The position numbers and the translations under genes are program-made. From IMG/VR virus record IMGVR_UViG_3300048036_000441, positions 1 to 21,989 of that record: DNA of 21,989 nucleotides; one strand, given 5' to 3'. Shown one piece after another: positions 15,557 through 21,989 of the stretch (position 1 is its first letter; each line of letters opens with the position of its first letter). The notes beneath the pieces are model-generated. The model was not told the DNA's origin. It searched no databases and was given only the letters and a program-made list of their open reading frames with translations. This DNA is from a virus.

Positions 15557-17740
15557 ATGGCAATTAATATAAAAGAATTATTCGACGCAGATGCAGATAA
15601 TATTAAAGTTGATAAAATAAATTACAATTTCGATCAGCTATTAGCATCAGGCGGAGGCCCAATCGGCATTAAAGGAAATGATGGTCAAAGTGGTCAAACT
15701 GGTCAAAAAGGTGACACGGGTAACACCGGATCTAAAGGTGAAGTTGGAGATAAAGGAGACTCTGGTGCAAGTTCTAGTCTATGGGCAGCCGATGTCGTAG
15801 TAGATGGTGGAGCAGAAGTAAGAGTACTTAGACCAATTGATATAGATCCAGACCCTGCTGAGGATCCTGATTCAATAGCAGGCAGAAGAACAAGAGTAGT
15901 TTTAGGAGATGATACTTATACAAATCCTATTCCTGCCCCTGATACACCTACTTCTCTTTTAACTTTAATAAATCCACCAGTTGCAAATGGAGATATAACT
16001 ACTCAAATTATATTATTAAATGAGGAAACAGGTTCTCCAAAGGAATTTAAAATTACGACTGATTATACAAGTGGTTCTGGAACTACAATGACTTTAACCG
16101 CACTCGCTGCTGCGTCTGGAGAAGAGAGTAATTTAAATATAACAATACCTAATAAAATAAACATTCTTAGTGAAGAAACTAAAGTAGATTCAAATACTGA
16201 AACTCACATAAATTCAAATGGGGACATTAATATAAAGAATAACAACTCAGGTGACATTAACATAGGGGATTTAGCTGATACTGCGAATGTTTATATAAAA
16301 AGTGAATTACTAAGTCAAATAGAATCTGATGGAATAATAAATCTATCTTCACCAGACATTAATATAGTATCATTAAATGGAACTATTGATTTAACATCGT
16401 TTGGAGGAGATGTTTCGATTAATTCTGATACTATTTCAGCACTCACAACTTCTACCATAGAACTTGCAGGAAGTAATATTAGTATAAAAGGTTCTGCCAG
16501 TGGACAAGGAGTTGATATAGAAGCTGAATCTGGATATGGAGGAAGAATAAACTTAATTGTAGGAGGTTCTACAAAATTTAAATTAGAATCCTCTTTAAGT
16601 ACTTCGAATCAATCAATATATATGGCACCTACTGGTTTAACTTTAGGTGGAACATGGGATCAGGTTAATGGAGGCGTGCCGGCTACTGGTTTAGTAGCAG
16701 ACGTCGATGTAGACTTAGGACATGGTATTAGGTTTCCACAAGGCTCAAATTCTAATTTAGGAGGAGATAGCGCAGCTGCAAATTATGGATCTGCTATAGA
16801 GCAAAGAACTTTTGCTGATTATTTTTATAATCCGGATGTTAATTTATGGGGAGCAAGTAGCACTATGAAATATGCAAGTCCTCTAAAATGTTTAAATTTA
16901 CAAAATACAACATCCGGTACACCGTTTGATCCTACAACTACACCAGATGCTCCATTATGGTATAATGAAGGAGCTAGTGTTAATGGTTGGGGATCTGTAG
17001 TCGATCATCAAAGAAACTTATACAGTAATCTTATATCTTCTTCAAATTATGGTAATTTTGCATATGTAAAAACTGGTAATTTAATAAATGCATGGGGAGA
17101 GATTATAGTCGGCTCTAACACTGTAGCACCTACCGTAACACCTAATACTGGAGGAGCTTATCCAGCTGATGCACATGCAGATTATTGGTCTTATTATAGT
17201 GTAGTAGACCCTCAGTTTTCGAATACTGTTCAGTTTTCAAGAGATAGACAAGCTTTGATGTTATTATTAAATTTAGCTGGAGAGTTTCCTTATTTAAACT
17301 CTTCTAAAACAGCAGTGCACGTTGACGTACAGGTAAAGGCAGATAGTGATGGAGGATTTTTTACTGGATATGGGCATAGCTCATCTGGGCGTGGATCTGA
17401 ATTTCCGGGAACTGTACCTAATCCTATCACTTCTATTGAAAATGGACTTTCACATCTCATTGATATAAAGGGAATAATTAATCCAAATTCTAATAGAATT
17501 GTATTTTTATATGATAGTATGAATCCTAATAGAAAGGAACTAGGAGATACGGGTGATGGCCAGGTTAATGACATATACACTCAAGGATTAAGCCCTTCTA
17601 TGGTTTATCAACCTAATGCAGATTGGTTTCCAGGTATTACTTTAAGATTTAAGTTTACAATGCCAACTCATATAAATTCATACAATAATCGCGTTGTTAA
17701 TACTTCTAATTCTTCTAATTTATCTAATATTAATGATTAA
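15557..17740 (+). CDS. Collagen-repeat tail fibre with beta-solenoid shaft
   Basis: This is a 727-residue fibre protein. Residues 1-33 form a short N-terminal docking segment (DKINYNFDQLLASGG). Residues 34-72 are 13 uninterrupted Gly-X-Y triplets (GPIGIKGNDG onwards), a collagen-like triple helix that forces trimerisation. Residues about 199-345 show dense short alternating strands (GDINIKNNNSGDINIGD; SSPDINIVSLNGTIDLTS; STIELAGSNISIKGS), as in trimeric beta-solenoid needles and fibre shafts. The C-terminal 380 residues are Gly/Ser/Tyr/Trp-rich and probably form the globular receptor-binding tip. The very C-terminus is a low-complexity Ser/Asn run (NTSNSSNLSNIND). Expected location is the phage tail or baseplate surface. 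The stop overlaps the next ATG (TAATG). No chaperone gene or intramolecular chaperone motif is recognisable. Confidence 0.75.
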   Translation: MAINIKELFDADADNIKVDKINYNFDQLLASGGGPIGIKGNDGQSGQTGQKGDTGNTGSKGEVGDKGDSGASSSLWAADVVVDGGAEVRVLRPIDIDPDPAEDPDSIAGRRTRVVLGDDTYTNPIPAPDTPTSLLTLINPPVANGDITTQIILLNEETGSPKEFKITTDYTSGSGTTMTLTALAAASGEESNLNITIPNKINILSEETKVDSNTETHINSNGDINIKNNNSGDINIGDLADTANVYIKSELLSQIESDGIINLSSPDINIVSLNGTIDLTSFGGDVSINSDTISALTTSTIELAGSNISIKGSASGQGVDIEAESGYGGRINLIVGGSTKFKLESSLSTSNQSIYMAPTGLTLGGTWDQVNGGVPATGLVADVDVDLGHGIRFPQGSNSNLGGDSAAANYGSAIEQRTFADYFYNPDVNLWGASSTMKYASPLKCLNLQNTTSGTPFDPTTTPDAPLWYNEGASVNGWGSVVDHQRNLYSNLISSSNYGNFAYVKTGNLINAWGEIIVGSNTVAPTVTPNTGGAYPADAHADYWSYYSVVDPQFSNTVQFSRDRQALMLLLNLAGEFPYLNSSKTAVHVDVQVKADSDGGFFTGYGHSSSGRGSEFPGTVPNPITSIENGLSHLIDIKGIINPNSNRIVFLYDSMNPNRKELGDTGDGQVNDIYTQGLSPSMVYQPNADWFPGITLRFKFTMPTHINSYNNRVVNTSNSSNLSNIND
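15656..15772 (+). repeat. Collagen-like Gly-X-Y repeat, 13 triplets
   Basis: Thirteen in-frame triplets with Gly in each first place: PI, IK, ND, QS, QT, QK, DT, NT, SK, EV, DK, DS, AS in the X-Y places. Only one Pro is present; stability probably comes from Lys/Asp/Glu/Gln pairs, as in other bacterial and phage collagens. Confidence 0.9.
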
Positions 17741-18543
17741 TGATAATGGTTAAAAAAATAGAAATAAAGCCAATACATTTTATAGCTGTTATTTTAGTGC
17801 TTATTATAATACTAATGCATCAATGTAACAGGAATGGTAAAATAAAAGCTATTAATAAAGGTTTAGAAAATAAAGTTGAAAGAGTAGAGGCTAATGTTAT
17901 TGCAAGTAAAGATAGTATTAAGTACTATAAAAATGAAAATGACTATTTAGTTAGTGAGATAAGCTCATATGAGTTTACTGCTGAAGAATTAAAAAATGAA
18001 GCAAATAATTTATATGCAAAATATGAAGATGCTTTAGGAGATATTAAAAAACTTAAAAGAGTTAATCAGTTATTAAGTGCTGAAATCAGTATTAAAGAAA
18101 CTGATACGGTTTATGCATTTATTGAAAGCGATTCAGTTTTGTATTTTAATGATTCTACTGATTATGGAGATGGGAATTGGAGAAAATGGAATAGTAAAAT
18201 TAGCTTGTTTGAAAAAGATAATAAATTAACAGGTGCTTTAAATAGTTTTAGCTATGAACAAGGAATTAAGTTATACTCAAGTGTTGAGGAAATTGACGGA
18301 ATTAAAAAAATTAATATCGCTACAAAATATCCTGGTTTAACTTTTAATAGTATTGAAGGTATTAGTCTTATTGAAGATGAGATAAATAAAGCAAAAGAAG
18401 AAAATAAAAGTAAAGTTAGATTAGGCTTAGGTGTAGGTTATGGTTTAACATTTACTACTGGCAATTTAGTATATCATGGCCCACAGGTTGGAGTGTTTTT
18501 AACATATACACCAAAATTGTTTAATTTTAAAAGAGATAAATAA
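17740..18543 (+). CDS. Membrane-anchored coiled-coil protein, possible spanin-like protein
   Basis: This is a 267-residue protein. Residues 1-10 are basic, then 11-26 form one strongly hydrophobic segment (PIHFIAVILVLIIILM) ending in HQC. There is no lipobox, so it should stay as an N-in/C-out inner-membrane anchor. Residues about 34-110 are Lys/Glu/Asn-rich with heptad spacing, a probable periplasmic coiled coil. A mixed middle follows. Residues about 224-262 read VRLGLGVGYGLTFTTGN, then GPQVGVFLTYTPKLF, a Gly/aromatic beta segment. Bacteroidota phages often carry proteins of this plan (TM, coiled coil, GVGxGY-type end) that are suspected Rz-like lysis proteins; this link is from memory. Alternative: a tail or host-envelope membrane protein. 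The start overlaps the fibre stop (TAATG); an ATG two codons later, at 17746, is also possible. Confidence 0.6.
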   Translation: MIMVKKIEIKPIHFIAVILVLIIILMHQCNRNGKIKAINKGLENKVERVEANVIASKDSIKYYKNENDYLVSEISSYEFTAEELKNEANNLYAKYEDALGDIKKLKRVNQLLSAEISIKETDTVYAFIESDSVLYFNDSTDYGDGNWRKWNSKISLFEKDNKLTGALNSFSYEQGIKLYSSVEEIDGIKKINIATKYPGLTFNSIEGISLIEDEINKAKEENKSKVRLGLGVGYGLTFTTGNLVYHGPQVGVFLTYTPKLFNFKRDK

Positions 18544-18546
18544 ATT

Positions 18547-20538
18547 ATGGCAGAAAGTTCAAGATATTATAAAATTGATAATGATATACTCTTAGAGGTT
18601 ATCTATCATGACCAATCTGATCCTTCTTCTTATGAAATAGAAGTTGACGATAATGGTAGTGAGATAAAAATATTAGATACTGTTCAAGGAGATTCAACTC
18701 AATCAAGACATCTTATACATGAACTTGGCAGTTTAGTAGTAAACTTTGATGTAACTGAAGATGGTGCATATGTTGCCGTTGAAGGATTTGCCGCAAGAAC
18801 TTTATTATTAGAAGCTGGTAAAACTTATAAATTTAATTTAAGTGCACTTTCTACTCCATCAGATTTTTCAATTACAGGTACTAACAATGGCGCAGGTTTA
18901 GTTGGAACAACATTTGTTTATATCCCTGCAAATACAGGTAATTACGAATATAAATTAACTAATTATATAGGTGGTAAAGTAACTGTTGGTAATGTTGCAA
19001 ATCCATTATTTGCAACGCCAGATGAAGAGACTGGAAATAGTATAGTAACAGGCTCTGGCAGTATTGAAAGATACCATGCTGTAAAAGTTAATGAAAATAA
19101 ATACGCTCTTTTAGATAGTACAGACATATTTATAGATAGTGTTGAATGGACAGGTTCTGATTCAGCAGATTTATTAGCTAGTCAAACTAATGCTACTAAT
19201 GTTGTTAATACAATTAAATATGATAAAGTAAGACTTCATTTAAGGAGTGGTTTTAGTTTTGCAGCAAGAGGCTATGAAGGTTTTTTATTCGAAGTAAAAA
19301 CTAATAGAACTTCAGGAGTTCAAAACTTCTTAACACAGGCTGTTTATTTAAACACATCAAGTTTTGAAATTAAAAATCCTAGACCTTTTATTTTAAGTGA
19401 AACTTTATATAGTAATTTTATAGAGATTAAATTACCAACACTAAAGAGTCAATACAGTGATTTTGAAGATTTATTCTATGACAATGGAACAGGTGCTAGT
19501 GATTTAGATACTACTTCAAATTATGATATTTCTTTAAAGTTAATTGACAACATAGAAGATACGGCTGGTATTGATTATATTTACACAGGAGAAGAAACTA
19601 ATTTTATAGTTGCTAAAGAAGATGAATTCCAAGATTTTACAGTTGTTGTAGAAGAGGCAGTAGATGGAGACTACTTTGAAATATATGGTGAAAAAGATAA
19701 TAGCGCTGCTGATTTTGAGGCTTATGTTATTAATAGAATAGCAACAAGTTCTGATGATATTTCAGTTATATTTGATATTATAGTAAATGAACAAATAGGT
19801 ACAAGTTTTATAGAGACTTATGCGACTTCAATTACACAGACTCAAGATTTTGAAGAGCCAATTCAGTTTAGGCCTATTATAAAAAATGCAAATAATGCTG
19901 TAAGTTTTATGATTGATGTAACAATGAGAATTTATAATCAAACTGATAATACTCAAATTGTAAAAAGAGGAAGTTTAATAGGTAACAACGCCCCTAAATA
20001 TGGTAAGAGATTAATGAGAGTAAATATAGCATCGAGTGCTAATTTAACTAGAGTTTACAATACTCTTCCAAATTTACAGGCTACAAGAAATGTTGCACAG
20101 GTAGTTAATGCTAGTTTACCTAAAGCTCAGGTAAAATACGCACCAGCATTTGTTGAAAGATTGAATGTTGTTGTAAATGTTGGTAATGTAACTATTGAAG
20201 ATGGGCAAATAAGTTCTATTAATAATGATGAGGGATTAGAAATATCTCCATTTGATACATATATTAAGTTTAGTGTTTCTAAAATAGACAACGGTGAAAG
20301 AAAATCAGTTTCATTTACTAACTTAAAACATGTTAAACTTAATTTTGCTGATGGAATTTACTTTAACAATATTACAAGTTTTAAAGATGTTGATTTATCT
20401 AAGGGTGAAGTATTATTTAAAATAGATAAAGCTAATGCTACTAAATTACAAGGTTTAAATAATAAAAAATACTATATTTCAATAGATAATGGTAGCACTG
20501 AAACTATGGTATTTACAGGTGAATACTCGGCAATATGA
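18547..20538 (+). CDS. Virion structural protein with beta-sandwich modules, unknown role
   Basis: This is a 663-residue acidic, beta-rich protein starting three bases after the previous stop. The N-terminus begins MAESSRYYKIDNDILLEVIY. Residues about 75-145 form a compact module (AARTLLLEAGKTYKFNLS, FVYIPANTGNYEYKL, GGKVTVGN) that recalls a cupredoxin-like beta-sandwich without the copper-binding His/Cys/Met residues. The middle has several beta domains with many Asp/Glu loops. The final 130 residues include VGNVTIEDGQISSIN and another beta domain. No signal peptide, membrane segment or catalytic motif is visible. Overlap ATGA with the tail-tube-like gene downstream suggests coupled expression, so a tail or baseplate part is likely (inference). 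I do not recognise a named T4 counterpart. Confidence 0.5.
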   Translation: MAESSRYYKIDNDILLEVIYHDQSDPSSYEIEVDDNGSEIKILDTVQGDSTQSRHLIHELGSLVVNFDVTEDGAYVAVEGFAARTLLLEAGKTYKFNLSALSTPSDFSITGTNNGAGLVGTTFVYIPANTGNYEYKLTNYIGGKVTVGNVANPLFATPDEETGNSIVTGSGSIERYHAVKVNENKYALLDSTDIFIDSVEWTGSDSADLLASQTNATNVVNTIKYDKVRLHLRSGFSFAARGYEGFLFEVKTNRTSGVQNFLTQAVYLNTSSFEIKNPRPFILSETLYSNFIEIKLPTLKSQYSDFEDLFYDNGTGASDLDTTSNYDISLKLIDNIEDTAGIDYIYTGEETNFIVAKEDEFQDFTVVVEEAVDGDYFEIYGEKDNSAADFEAYVINRIATSSDDISVIFDIIVNEQIGTSFIETYATSITQTQDFEEPIQFRPIIKNANNAVSFMIDVTMRIYNQTDNTQIVKRGSLIGNNAPKYGKRLMRVNIASSANLTRVYNTLPNLQATRNVAQVVNASLPKAQVKYAPAFVERLNVVVNVGNVTIEDGQISSINNDEGLEISPFDTYIKFSVSKIDNGERKSVSFTNLKHVKLNFADGIYFNNITSFKDVDLSKGEVLFKIDKANATKLQGLNNKKYYISIDNGSTETMVFTGEYSAI

Positions 20539-21086
20539 TTTTAGATAGTAGAAATAATTCATTTGATTTTAGGTTTCCTAGGAAATTTATACCTCAAGAA
20601 ATTGTAGACAAATATAAACCTTATTTAAATAAAATACCAGGTAACTTATTTGAAGACCCTATTGATTTTATTAATTACGGAATTCAGTCTATTAATTTAC
20701 CAGGAATTTCGTATGATCCAGTAAGCCAAGCAGATAACGATGGAACTGTTCGTTATTTTAGGGGAAAGGTGCCAATTCAAAATACTATTAACAGGCAGTT
20801 TACTGTGACTATGCAATTAATGGATGGCTATATTAATTATTGGATGATGACAGATATTTTGTTATATTATTATGCGCCTACTACTAAGCAAAAACATATT
20901 AATGATTTAAAATTAGGTATATTAGACGCTGAAGATCTAGTACTTGCTAATATTACTCTTGAAAAACCAATCTTAAATCAGATAAGTGAATTAAACTTAA
21001 ATATGGCAGAGAACGTTGCTGAGTTTAATACATTTGATTTAAATTTTTACTACAATAAATTCCATATTAAAATTGATGTAGATTAA
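20535..21086 (+). CDS. Tail-tube-fold protein (T4 gp19-like)
   Basis: This 183-residue protein is close to T4 gp19 (163 residues). The order of segments follows gp19: an early FDFRF strand, then YGIQSINLPGISYDPV (gp19 has an 'ALPAG' turn here), a NRQFTVTMQL strand before a helix with YWMMTDILLYYY, then ITLEKPILNQISELNLNM and FNTFDLNFYYN at the end. The last two match gp19's 'KGLWPTNVGELQLDW...QTFEVTLALDY' pattern: a strand, the 'P..(I/V).EL.L' turn and a final strand. Tube proteins stack as hexamers to form the DNA channel; related folds occur in the gp48/gp54 tube initiators, so it could be one of those or a baseplate hub ring instead. The ATG overlaps the upstream stop (ATGA). Confidence 0.58.
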   Translation: MILDSRNNSFDFRFPRKFIPQEIVDKYKPYLNKIPGNLFEDPIDFINYGIQSINLPGISYDPVSQADNDGTVRYFRGKVPIQNTINRQFTVTMQLMDGYINYWMMTDILLYYYAPTTKQKHINDLKLGILDAEDLVLANITLEKPILNQISELNLNMAENVAEFNTFDLNFYYNKFHIKIDVD

Positions 21087-21100
21087 AAGATATATAACCT

Positions 21101-21469
21101 ATGAAAACATTTATAGAATATTTAGAAGAAAATAAAGTTACTCAAAGAGAGATGCAACTTTTAACAGAAGGTTTTCAACAAGAATGGACTCCTGAATTGG
21201 AAGAAAAAGTAGATCAAGCTGTCGATGCTTTTTTAAATGAATACAGAGATGAAAATGGAGAATTAGACGTTGATAGATTTAATAATGAAATGACTAACGA
21301 AGGTCTTTTAGGTTCTATTGTAGGTGGTCTTGCTGGTTTTGCTTTAGGAAAATCTATTGGAAAGATGGTAGCTAAAGTATTAGGCGTACAAAAAGGAGTA
21401 CTATATGATTTATTAACTTCACGACTCGTTGGAACTGCAATAGGTGCAACCATGGGTAAAAGATTTTAA
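21101..21469 (+). CDS. Small glycine-zipper protein, possible processed capsid-interior protein
   Basis: This is a 122-residue protein. Residues 1-22 form a charged amphipathic helix (MKTFIEYLEENK...). It resembles the N-terminal core-targeting peptides of T4-like internal head proteins. L21-T22-E23 before G24 fits the T4 prohead protease rule (L/I-x-E, cut before Gly/Ala). Residues 28-67 are acidic and helical. Residues 71-87 have Gly at every fourth place (G71, 75, 79, 83, 87), with a second run at G111, 115, 119: a glycine zipper, as in membrane-inserting or oligomerising helices. Two hydrophobic hairpin-like helices are likely (71-95 and 100-119). Candidates are an ejected membrane-active protein, a holin-like protein or a structural channel; none is proven. 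It starts 14 bases after the tail-tube-like gene. Confidence 0.6.
   Translation: MKTFIEYLEENKVTQREMQLLTEGFQQEWTPELEEKVDQAVDAFLNEYRDENGELDVDRFNNEMTNEGLLGSIVGGLAGFALGKSIGKMVAKVLGVQKGVLYDLLTSRLVGTAIGATMGKRF
21311..21361 (+). repeat. Glycine zipper, five Gly at four-residue spacing
   Basis: The codons for residues 71-87 (GSIVGGLAGFALGKSIG) place Gly at 71, 75, 79, 83 and 87. Such GxxxG runs pack helices tightly in membranes. Confidence 0.75.
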
Positions 21470-21470
21470 T

Positions 21471-21989
21471 ATGAATTTTATCACAATTGATTTTTCTTTA
21501 AATTCTCCAGGTATTTGTGTTTTTAATAGTAACACAGAACAATATCATTTTATTTCTTATTTAAAAAGATCAGGTACAAAGAAGGCTATTAAAATGCAAG
21601 AAGACTTTGCCTTAATAGGAGGCGTTACTCTTGTCTTTCAACCTGATTGGGAAACTCATGTAGATTATTCAAGTGTTGAGCTCGCAAAAATTAAGCGATA
21701 TGATATTATGTCAAATGATATTATCGAACTAATTACAAAGCACATAGATAAAGAAGACTCTTTTAAGATAGCATTTGAAGGGGTATCTTATGGTAGTTCT
21801 GCTGGGACTAATAATATTATTGATATGGCAGCCGCGGCATCTATTCTTAAGATTAAACTTCTCAAATACTTTAAGCCCGAAGACATTTTAACAATTGCTC
21901 CTTCAACAATTAAAAAACATGCGGGTAAAGGTAATATGAATAAGCTTGCTTTATGGGAAGTTTTTATAAATAATTCTACAGGTGAAAAA
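21471..21989 (+). CDS. RuvC-like Holliday junction resolvase (RNase H fold), 3' end missing
   Basis: An ATG at 21471, one base after the previous stop, opens a frame that runs off the right edge; 173 codons are visible. Strand 1 reads MNFITIDFSLNSPGICVF, with D7 in the place of the first catalytic Asp of RuvC-type resolvases (D-x-S, then a second strand). Residues 100-107 (IAFEGVSYGS) put E103 at the second acidic position. A Gly/Ser/Ala-rich helix follows (TNNIIDMAAAASILKIKL), then ILTIAPSTIKKHAGKGNMNK, matching the 'P...(V/I)KK...G.G...K' step before the last acidic helix. The remaining acidic residues should lie beyond 21989. Expected role: cutting branched DNA before or during packaging, or recombination. 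A related RNase H-fold nuclease is possible. Between strands 1 and 2 there is an unusual 40-residue insertion (about 35-75). Confidence 0.68.
   Translation, partial: MNFITIDFSLNSPGICVFNSNTEQYHFISYLKRSGTKKAIKMQEDFALIGGVTLVFQPDWETHVDYSSVELAKIKRYDIMSNDIIELITKHIDKEDSFKIAFEGVSYGSSAGTNNIIDMAAAASILKIKLLKYFKPEDILTIAPSTIKKHAGKGNMNKLALWEVFINNSTGEK

Follow-up and report, generated by a model that had tools for sequence, protein, structure and literature searches.

We think it fairly likely that the 122-residue protein described here, encoded in the 21,989-base window – the entire virus record, which is a 22-kb fragment of a large phage – belongs to the T4-type internal head proteins and has as its cargo a small, probably membrane-active, glycine-zipper domain. 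Judged from its sequence and those of its relatives, the protein is probably loaded into the capsid, cut back by a protease that the phage itself encodes and passed to the host along with the DNA, and its glycine-rich end may enter the host membrane. The translated sequence is MKTFIEYLEENKVTQREMQLLTEGFQQEWTPELEEKVDQAVDAFLNEYRDENGELDVDRFNNEMTNEGLLGSIVGGLAGFALGKSIGKMVAKVLGVQKGVLYDLLTSRLVGTAIGATMGKRF, and the coordinates of its features and neighbours are listed in Table 1; arrows mark candidate cleavage points.

Table 1. Features of the glycine-zipper gene and its two neighbours, in window coordinates.
Feature	Position	Strand	Basis
Glycine-zipper protein ORF, 122 aa	21101..21469	+	Translation; length and layout conserved in 62 distinct homologs
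Residues 1-10, MKTFIEYLEE, T4-type capsid targeting motif (aromatic 4 and 7, aliphatic 8, Glu 10)	21101..21130	+	Conservation; likeness to T4 IPII/IPIII; T4 mutational data (PMC9026906)
Candidate prohead-protease site L21-T22-E23↓G24	21161..21172	+	E23 in 62/62; P3 L44 I16 V2; P1' G45 S14
Acidic region, residues 24-67, pI 4.05, charge about -11	21170..21301	+	Computed; low-confidence models predict mainly helix
Second candidate cleavage site T65-N66-E67↓G68, directly before the zipper	21293..21304	+	E67-G68 in 62/62; Thr at P3 departs from L/I-X-E
Basic hydrophobic glycine-zipper domain, residues 68-122, pI 10.7, charge +5.8	21302..21466	+	Computed charge; zipper conservation; PF13488 match
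First Gly-x3-Gly run, Gly 71/75/79/83/87	21311..21361	+	Spacing count and conservation
Second Gly-x3-Gly run, Gly 111/115/119	21431..21457	+	Spacing count and conservation
Upstream neighbour, 183-aa protein ending the tail/baseplate-region gene run	20535..21086	+	Adjoins the zipper gene in 111/112 loci with room for it
Downstream neighbour, RuvC-like resolvase, cut short by the window end	21471..21989	+	phrog_159, E=4.7e-9; adjoins in 114/115 loci with room for it

IMG/VR was scanned once by protein and once by alignment, and at least 503 related stretches were found. Sixty-two distinct homologs, mostly from marine contigs, were aligned, and the conservation of the zipper glycines was read from 55 homologs. 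The copy on a 205-kb contig (G001) is 91% identical to the window protein; the homolog in the 462-kb phage LR756500.1 is 45% identical over nearly its full length, and the Lak megaphages encode one that is ~40% identical over the zipper half and has LTSR-LV in common with the family. A pattern search of 84,980 bacterial and archaeal genomes returned 18 matches, none of them a relative, and no named phage was found with a nucleotide match to the last 7 kb of the window. At the sensitivity used, the family is confined to phages; it is common in marine metagenomes and is also present in the gut Lak megaphages. Open reading frames in the relatives were called mechanically, and a few of their start sites may be wrong.

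The N-terminal ten residues, which the initial annotation passed over together with the invariant T65-N66-E67↓G68, resemble the T4 capsid targeting sequence. In T4 the first ten residues are enough for packaging; targeting depends most on residues 4 and 7, and processing on residues 8 and 10 (PMC9026906). In the family, positions 4 and 7 (F4 in 61 and Y7 in 59 of the 62 homologs) are better kept than positions 8 and 10 (L8 in 54, E10 in 53). The T4-type pair of aromatic residues is thus present in nearly all homologs and the processing pair in most, and another L/I-X-E, at residues 21-23, is present in 60. At positions 4, 7, 8 and 10, which mutation has shown to matter in T4, the family start, MKTFxxYLxE, matches MKTYQEFIAEA, with which IPII and IPIII begin in the T4 record; T4 IPI has MKTFKEF and then ITE↓A near residue 20, the same two-part layout as in the zipper protein. 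One clade has a degenerate leader, MKTFLDYMTNAN, lacking E10, yet keeps F4, Y7 and the E23 site. The LR756500 homolog also has a degenerate leader (METFIEYKNND), and in the Lak homologs the leader is not recognisable and the LFE↓G site alone remains.

A strict form of the motif, K[T/S][F/Y]xx[F/Y][I/L/V/M]xE, starts three G001 reading frames – the zipper gene, a 114-aa gene and ORF 176438 – and occurs internally only once among the roughly 186,000 residues examined in three phages. A looser form starts 15 G001 proteins, where 3.3 are expected from internal sequence, and 19 proteins in a 240-kb segment of LR756500, where 2.0 are expected; the corresponding figures for Lak-C1 are 4 and 1.3, and the tag is thus not shown in that phage. 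A leader profile built from the remaining tagged proteins scores the window protein within the top 0.03% of internal 8-mers. The profile was rejected as a classifier, some family members and T4 IPI scoring poorly.

The leader-tagged proteins of G001 and LR756500 may be capsid cargo. Tagged proteins in both begin with MKxIKxYxxFLNE and variants of it, and the residue following the leader Glu (P1') is often N, D or K, which speaks against the reading that we favour. Those recognised by eye include, in LR756500, leucine-rich-repeat proteins and, in G001, an S41-peptidase-like protein (54283); G001 130045 (polyA-polymerase/CCA-enzyme-like) and G001 131199 (a GNAT acetyltransferase) have weaker leaders. 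An orthologous protein of G001 (53010), G003, G004 and LR756500 (267941) has a KTDGQ nucleotidyltransferase-like motif, again by eye, and no Pfam match; in it a variable leader is followed by a conserved LILE↓GG opening the shared domain, a two-site layout like that of the zipper protein.

Among residues 1-68, no position is the same in all 62 homologs except E23, E67 and G68. The L-T-E before Gly that the initial annotation singled out is L21-T22-E23↓G24, and the P3 residue conforms to L/I-X-E in 60 of the 62 homologs and to V-X-E in two; beyond the Gly and Ser listed in Table 1, P1' is Asn in two and Gln in one. T4 gp21 cuts after L/I-X-E (PMC9026906), a rule with which E23 agrees well and E67 only loosely. 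Cleavage after E23 is likely. A related protease, gp245 of SPN3US, prefers serine at P1' (PMC10052503), and the same Gly/Ser swap recurs in the candidate propeptide site near the N-terminus of the relatives' capsid protein (PIIE↓S versus PIIE↓G). The second site has Gly after E67 in all 62 homologs and Thr at P3 in 59, with the counterparts INE↓G in LR756500 and VDE↓G in Lak. Residues up to E67 have a charge of about -12 to -14, and the freed 68-122 segment would be 55 aa long with a charge of +6; E67↓G68 could instead be a helix cap. Beyond residue 25, [LI]NE[GAS] is approximately 5-fold enriched in the leader-bearing proteins of G001 and absent there in LR756500, and motif counting was for that reason set aside as proof of the E67 site, to which it lends weak support.

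T4-type head genes are present in the relatives. A Peptidase_S77 (gp21-type) match lies above the cut-off in seven of nine relatives' records, so that the gp21-like protease gene that the initial annotation proposed looking for, and the lack of which it would have taken as a refutation, has been found in relatives, including on the 205-kb contig; the window's own genome is known only from the 22-kb fragment, which has no such gene. The G001 protease (phrog_207 head maturation protease, E=1.9e-38) adjoins a gp23-like major head protein (phrog_138, E=3.7e-42), and the portal matches Portal_T4 (PF07230, E=9.9e-71). The portal gene is followed by the leader-bearing small gene, the protease gene and the capsid protein gene, an order that resembles 20-67/68-21-23 of T4, and the small gene, which encodes an acidic protein of 114 aa, occupies the position of the T4 core genes 67/68. 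Its leader is kept in relatives (MKLKTFNQFILE, MKKVRLYEDFIAE), even at 37% identity, and its location at the core-gene position ties the leader motif to the prohead core. Together with the T4-type leader and the (L/I/V)-X-E↓(G/S) site with its invariant Glu, these genes lend good support to the earlier suggestion of a protease-trimmed protein of the capsid interior. About 4 kb separate the protease and zipper genes of Lak-C1. A second, weaker Peptidase_S77 match in LR756500 (154951-155127, E=2.5e-4, in a 135-aa frame) is possibly a diverged protease paralog, as reported for SPN3US.

The glycine periodicity that first drew attention to the protein, five glycines at every fourth residue followed by three more, is borne out by translation, and all eight (G71, G75, G79, G83, G87, G111, G115 and G119) are invariant in the 55 homologs. 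A run of five at i+4 spacing arises in 0.7% of shuffles of residues 67-122 and is by composition only moderately rare; we regard the zipper as meaningful because the glycines are conserved, which is the stronger argument. Residues 69-92 match the Pfam family Gly-zipper_Omp (PF13488) at 24 bits against a cut-off of 25, and 36 of the 55 family members match it at E≤0.01; the likeness to Pfam glycine-zipper domains is a Gly-x3-Gly run in a hydrophobic helix, whereas the window protein lies just under the curated cut-off and in a different context. The acidic stretch before the zipper is also as first described, its helix being predicted in AlphaFold models of low confidence (pLDDT 61 and 59, from 21 and 55 sequences respectively). 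Searching solved structures with the family profile gave one chance match only (NDUFA8, E=0.21).

The mean hydropathy of residues 68-122 is +0.82, and the maximum Kyte-Doolittle 19-mer value of 1.4 is moderate, which makes transmembrane insertion uncertain; the hydrophobic, basic glycine-zipper half is compatible with insertion at DNA entry, which may occur. The main competing explanation is that the protein is packaged and trimmed as we propose and, once mature, functions as an internal protein in solution or in association with DNA, its glycines serving tight helix packing and not membrane insertion. The leader and the cleavage-site evidence fit this equally well, the hydrophobicity is moderate, Lys 84, 88 and 92 are spaced within the first zipper, and residues 68-122 are basic (pI 10.7), a property also ascribed to the internal proteins of T4 (PMC9026906). 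We nevertheless consider it unlikely, as the G71-G87 run with its LLGSIVGGLAGFAL core matches PF13488, and the family is conserved across distant phages, unlike the poorly conserved internal proteins of T4.

The zipper gene itself lies beside tail-region genes and RuvC, away from the head cluster, and its position gives no support for a role in the head. This location bears on a further alternative, that the protein is a membrane-active component of the tail or baseplate, which might, for example, leave the tip of the tail tube together with the tape measure. The 183-aa gene that adjoins it in 111 of 112 loci ends the tail-region block, and there is a weak tape-measure match (phrog_794, E=0.1). 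That match is not significant, however, and by inspection the leader is missing from all other reading frames in the window but present on the core-like gene next to the protease; we therefore hold a tail function to be improbable. In the window, positions 15557-17740 encode a tail-fibre-like protein (phrog_5073, E=1.2e-8) with a collagen-like Gly-x-y repeat. Positions 17740-18543, within the tail gene run, encode a 267-aa protein that weakly matches a spanin-like family (phrog_9841, E=0.0026) and has an N-terminal hydrophobic segment and a coiled coil.

The holin role that the initial annotation gave as its main alternative, or another lysis role, in which the protein would accumulate in the inner membrane late in infection, is similarly hard to sustain. 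The small size, the two hydrophobic helices rich in glycine and the charged tail would suit a holin, but the leader and the gene location both tell against it: the protein has a long acidic N-terminal half, conserved protease sites and a T4-type leader that a holin role would not explain, the neighbours in nearly all loci are the tail-region protein and RuvC, and in G001 the endolysin gene (at 126 kb) is about 79 kb from the zipper gene (at 46.7 kb). No holin family is among the PHROGs or Pfam matches of the protein. Small membrane-type phage proteins often serve superinfection exclusion or host takeover, but a membrane protein of that kind, made in the infected cell and bearing the leader by coincidence, is very hard to reconcile with a strict motif so rare by chance and with an E23 that is invariant, with L/I/V at P3, in 62 of 62 homologs.

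For the internal head protein that we favour, the following course can be envisaged. The MKTFxxYLxE leader would bind the prohead core and carry the protein into the head, as the identity of the motif with that of T4 suggests, and the gp21-type protease would cut after E23 during maturation and possibly also after E10 and/or E67, the conserved sites being the guide. If E67 is cut, the 55-aa basic hydrophobic domain would be freed from an acidic propeptide that keeps it soluble and core-bound. The mature protein would be packaged with the DNA and, on the precedents of T4 and SPN3US, exit through the tail at infection; more speculatively, the two Gly-x3-Gly helices would pack in the host inner membrane and either aid DNA entry or act on the membrane early. 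A bolder version, which we put forward tentatively and do not expect to hold in full, is that the head of these contractile-tailed phages stores a protease-activated membrane peptide: the E67↓G68 cut would unmask a 55-aa cationic glycine-zipper hairpin that, once ejected, oligomerises in the inner membrane and forms or lines the channel by which the DNA of Lak-related giant phages enters.

Other proteins of these phages too have an acidic N-terminus that closes with L/I-X-E and is followed by a basic, often hydrophobic region; the recurrence is suggestive only, and motif counts were mixed. Examples in G001 are the products at 70210 (LINE↓GLF) and 149872 (LLNE↓GIFG). LR756500 has an extra gene between the zipper gene and RuvC (281958-282809), the 283-aa product of which has a 140-residue N-terminus with a charge of -43, LEE↓G, and a part rich in Lys and Gly that includes a hydrophobic, glycine-rich segment. 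The divergently oriented neighbour of the Lak-C1 zipper gene (153318-154568, + strand) encodes 416 aa with an acidic N-terminus, LNE↓LFG and a long basic region with hydrophobic segments, and is possibly a second internal protein.

Among known systems, the closest in layout are IPI, IPII and IPIII of T4, which share the leader, an L/I-X-E site at about residue 20 (ITE↓A in IPI) and a basic mature part, and relatives of the zipper phage encode the accompanying gp21-type protease, T4-type portal and gp23-like capsid protein. No sequence similarity is seen beyond the leader, however; the zipper protein has a long acidic propeptide and a hydrophobic glycine-zipper domain, which the T4 proteins lack, and the zipper family is conserved across distant phages whereas the T4 internal proteins are variable. 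One of the latter, IPI, inhibits a restriction enzyme. The head protein gp47 of the giant phage SPN3US loses a long propeptide by cleavage, has a predicted transmembrane helix and is inferred to be ejected (PMC5694885). Together with other ejection proteins of the phiKZ group it resembles the zipper protein in layout, coming from a giant phage and having several candidate protease sites in an N-terminal propeptide and a hydrophobic segment in the mature part; the SPN3US propeptides are mostly longer and the protease motif differs. Podovirus ejection proteins (T7 gp14-gp15-gp16, P22 gp7/gp16/gp20) form a trans-envelope conduit, and the likeness to these is confined to the proposed role, the phage type being different and no homology being seen.

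How the genomes of giant contractile-tailed phages cross the inner membrane, and what cargo is delivered with them, is poorly known, and we found no virion proteomics on this phage group. The T4-type leader offers a simple sequence rule for predicting head-loaded proteins in uncultured phages, and the 15 and 19 leader-marked proteins, a few of which are expected by chance, constitute a candidate injected set that can be tested by virion proteomics. Cleavage at E67, if it takes place, would be an attractive way of keeping a membrane-active domain soluble until maturation.
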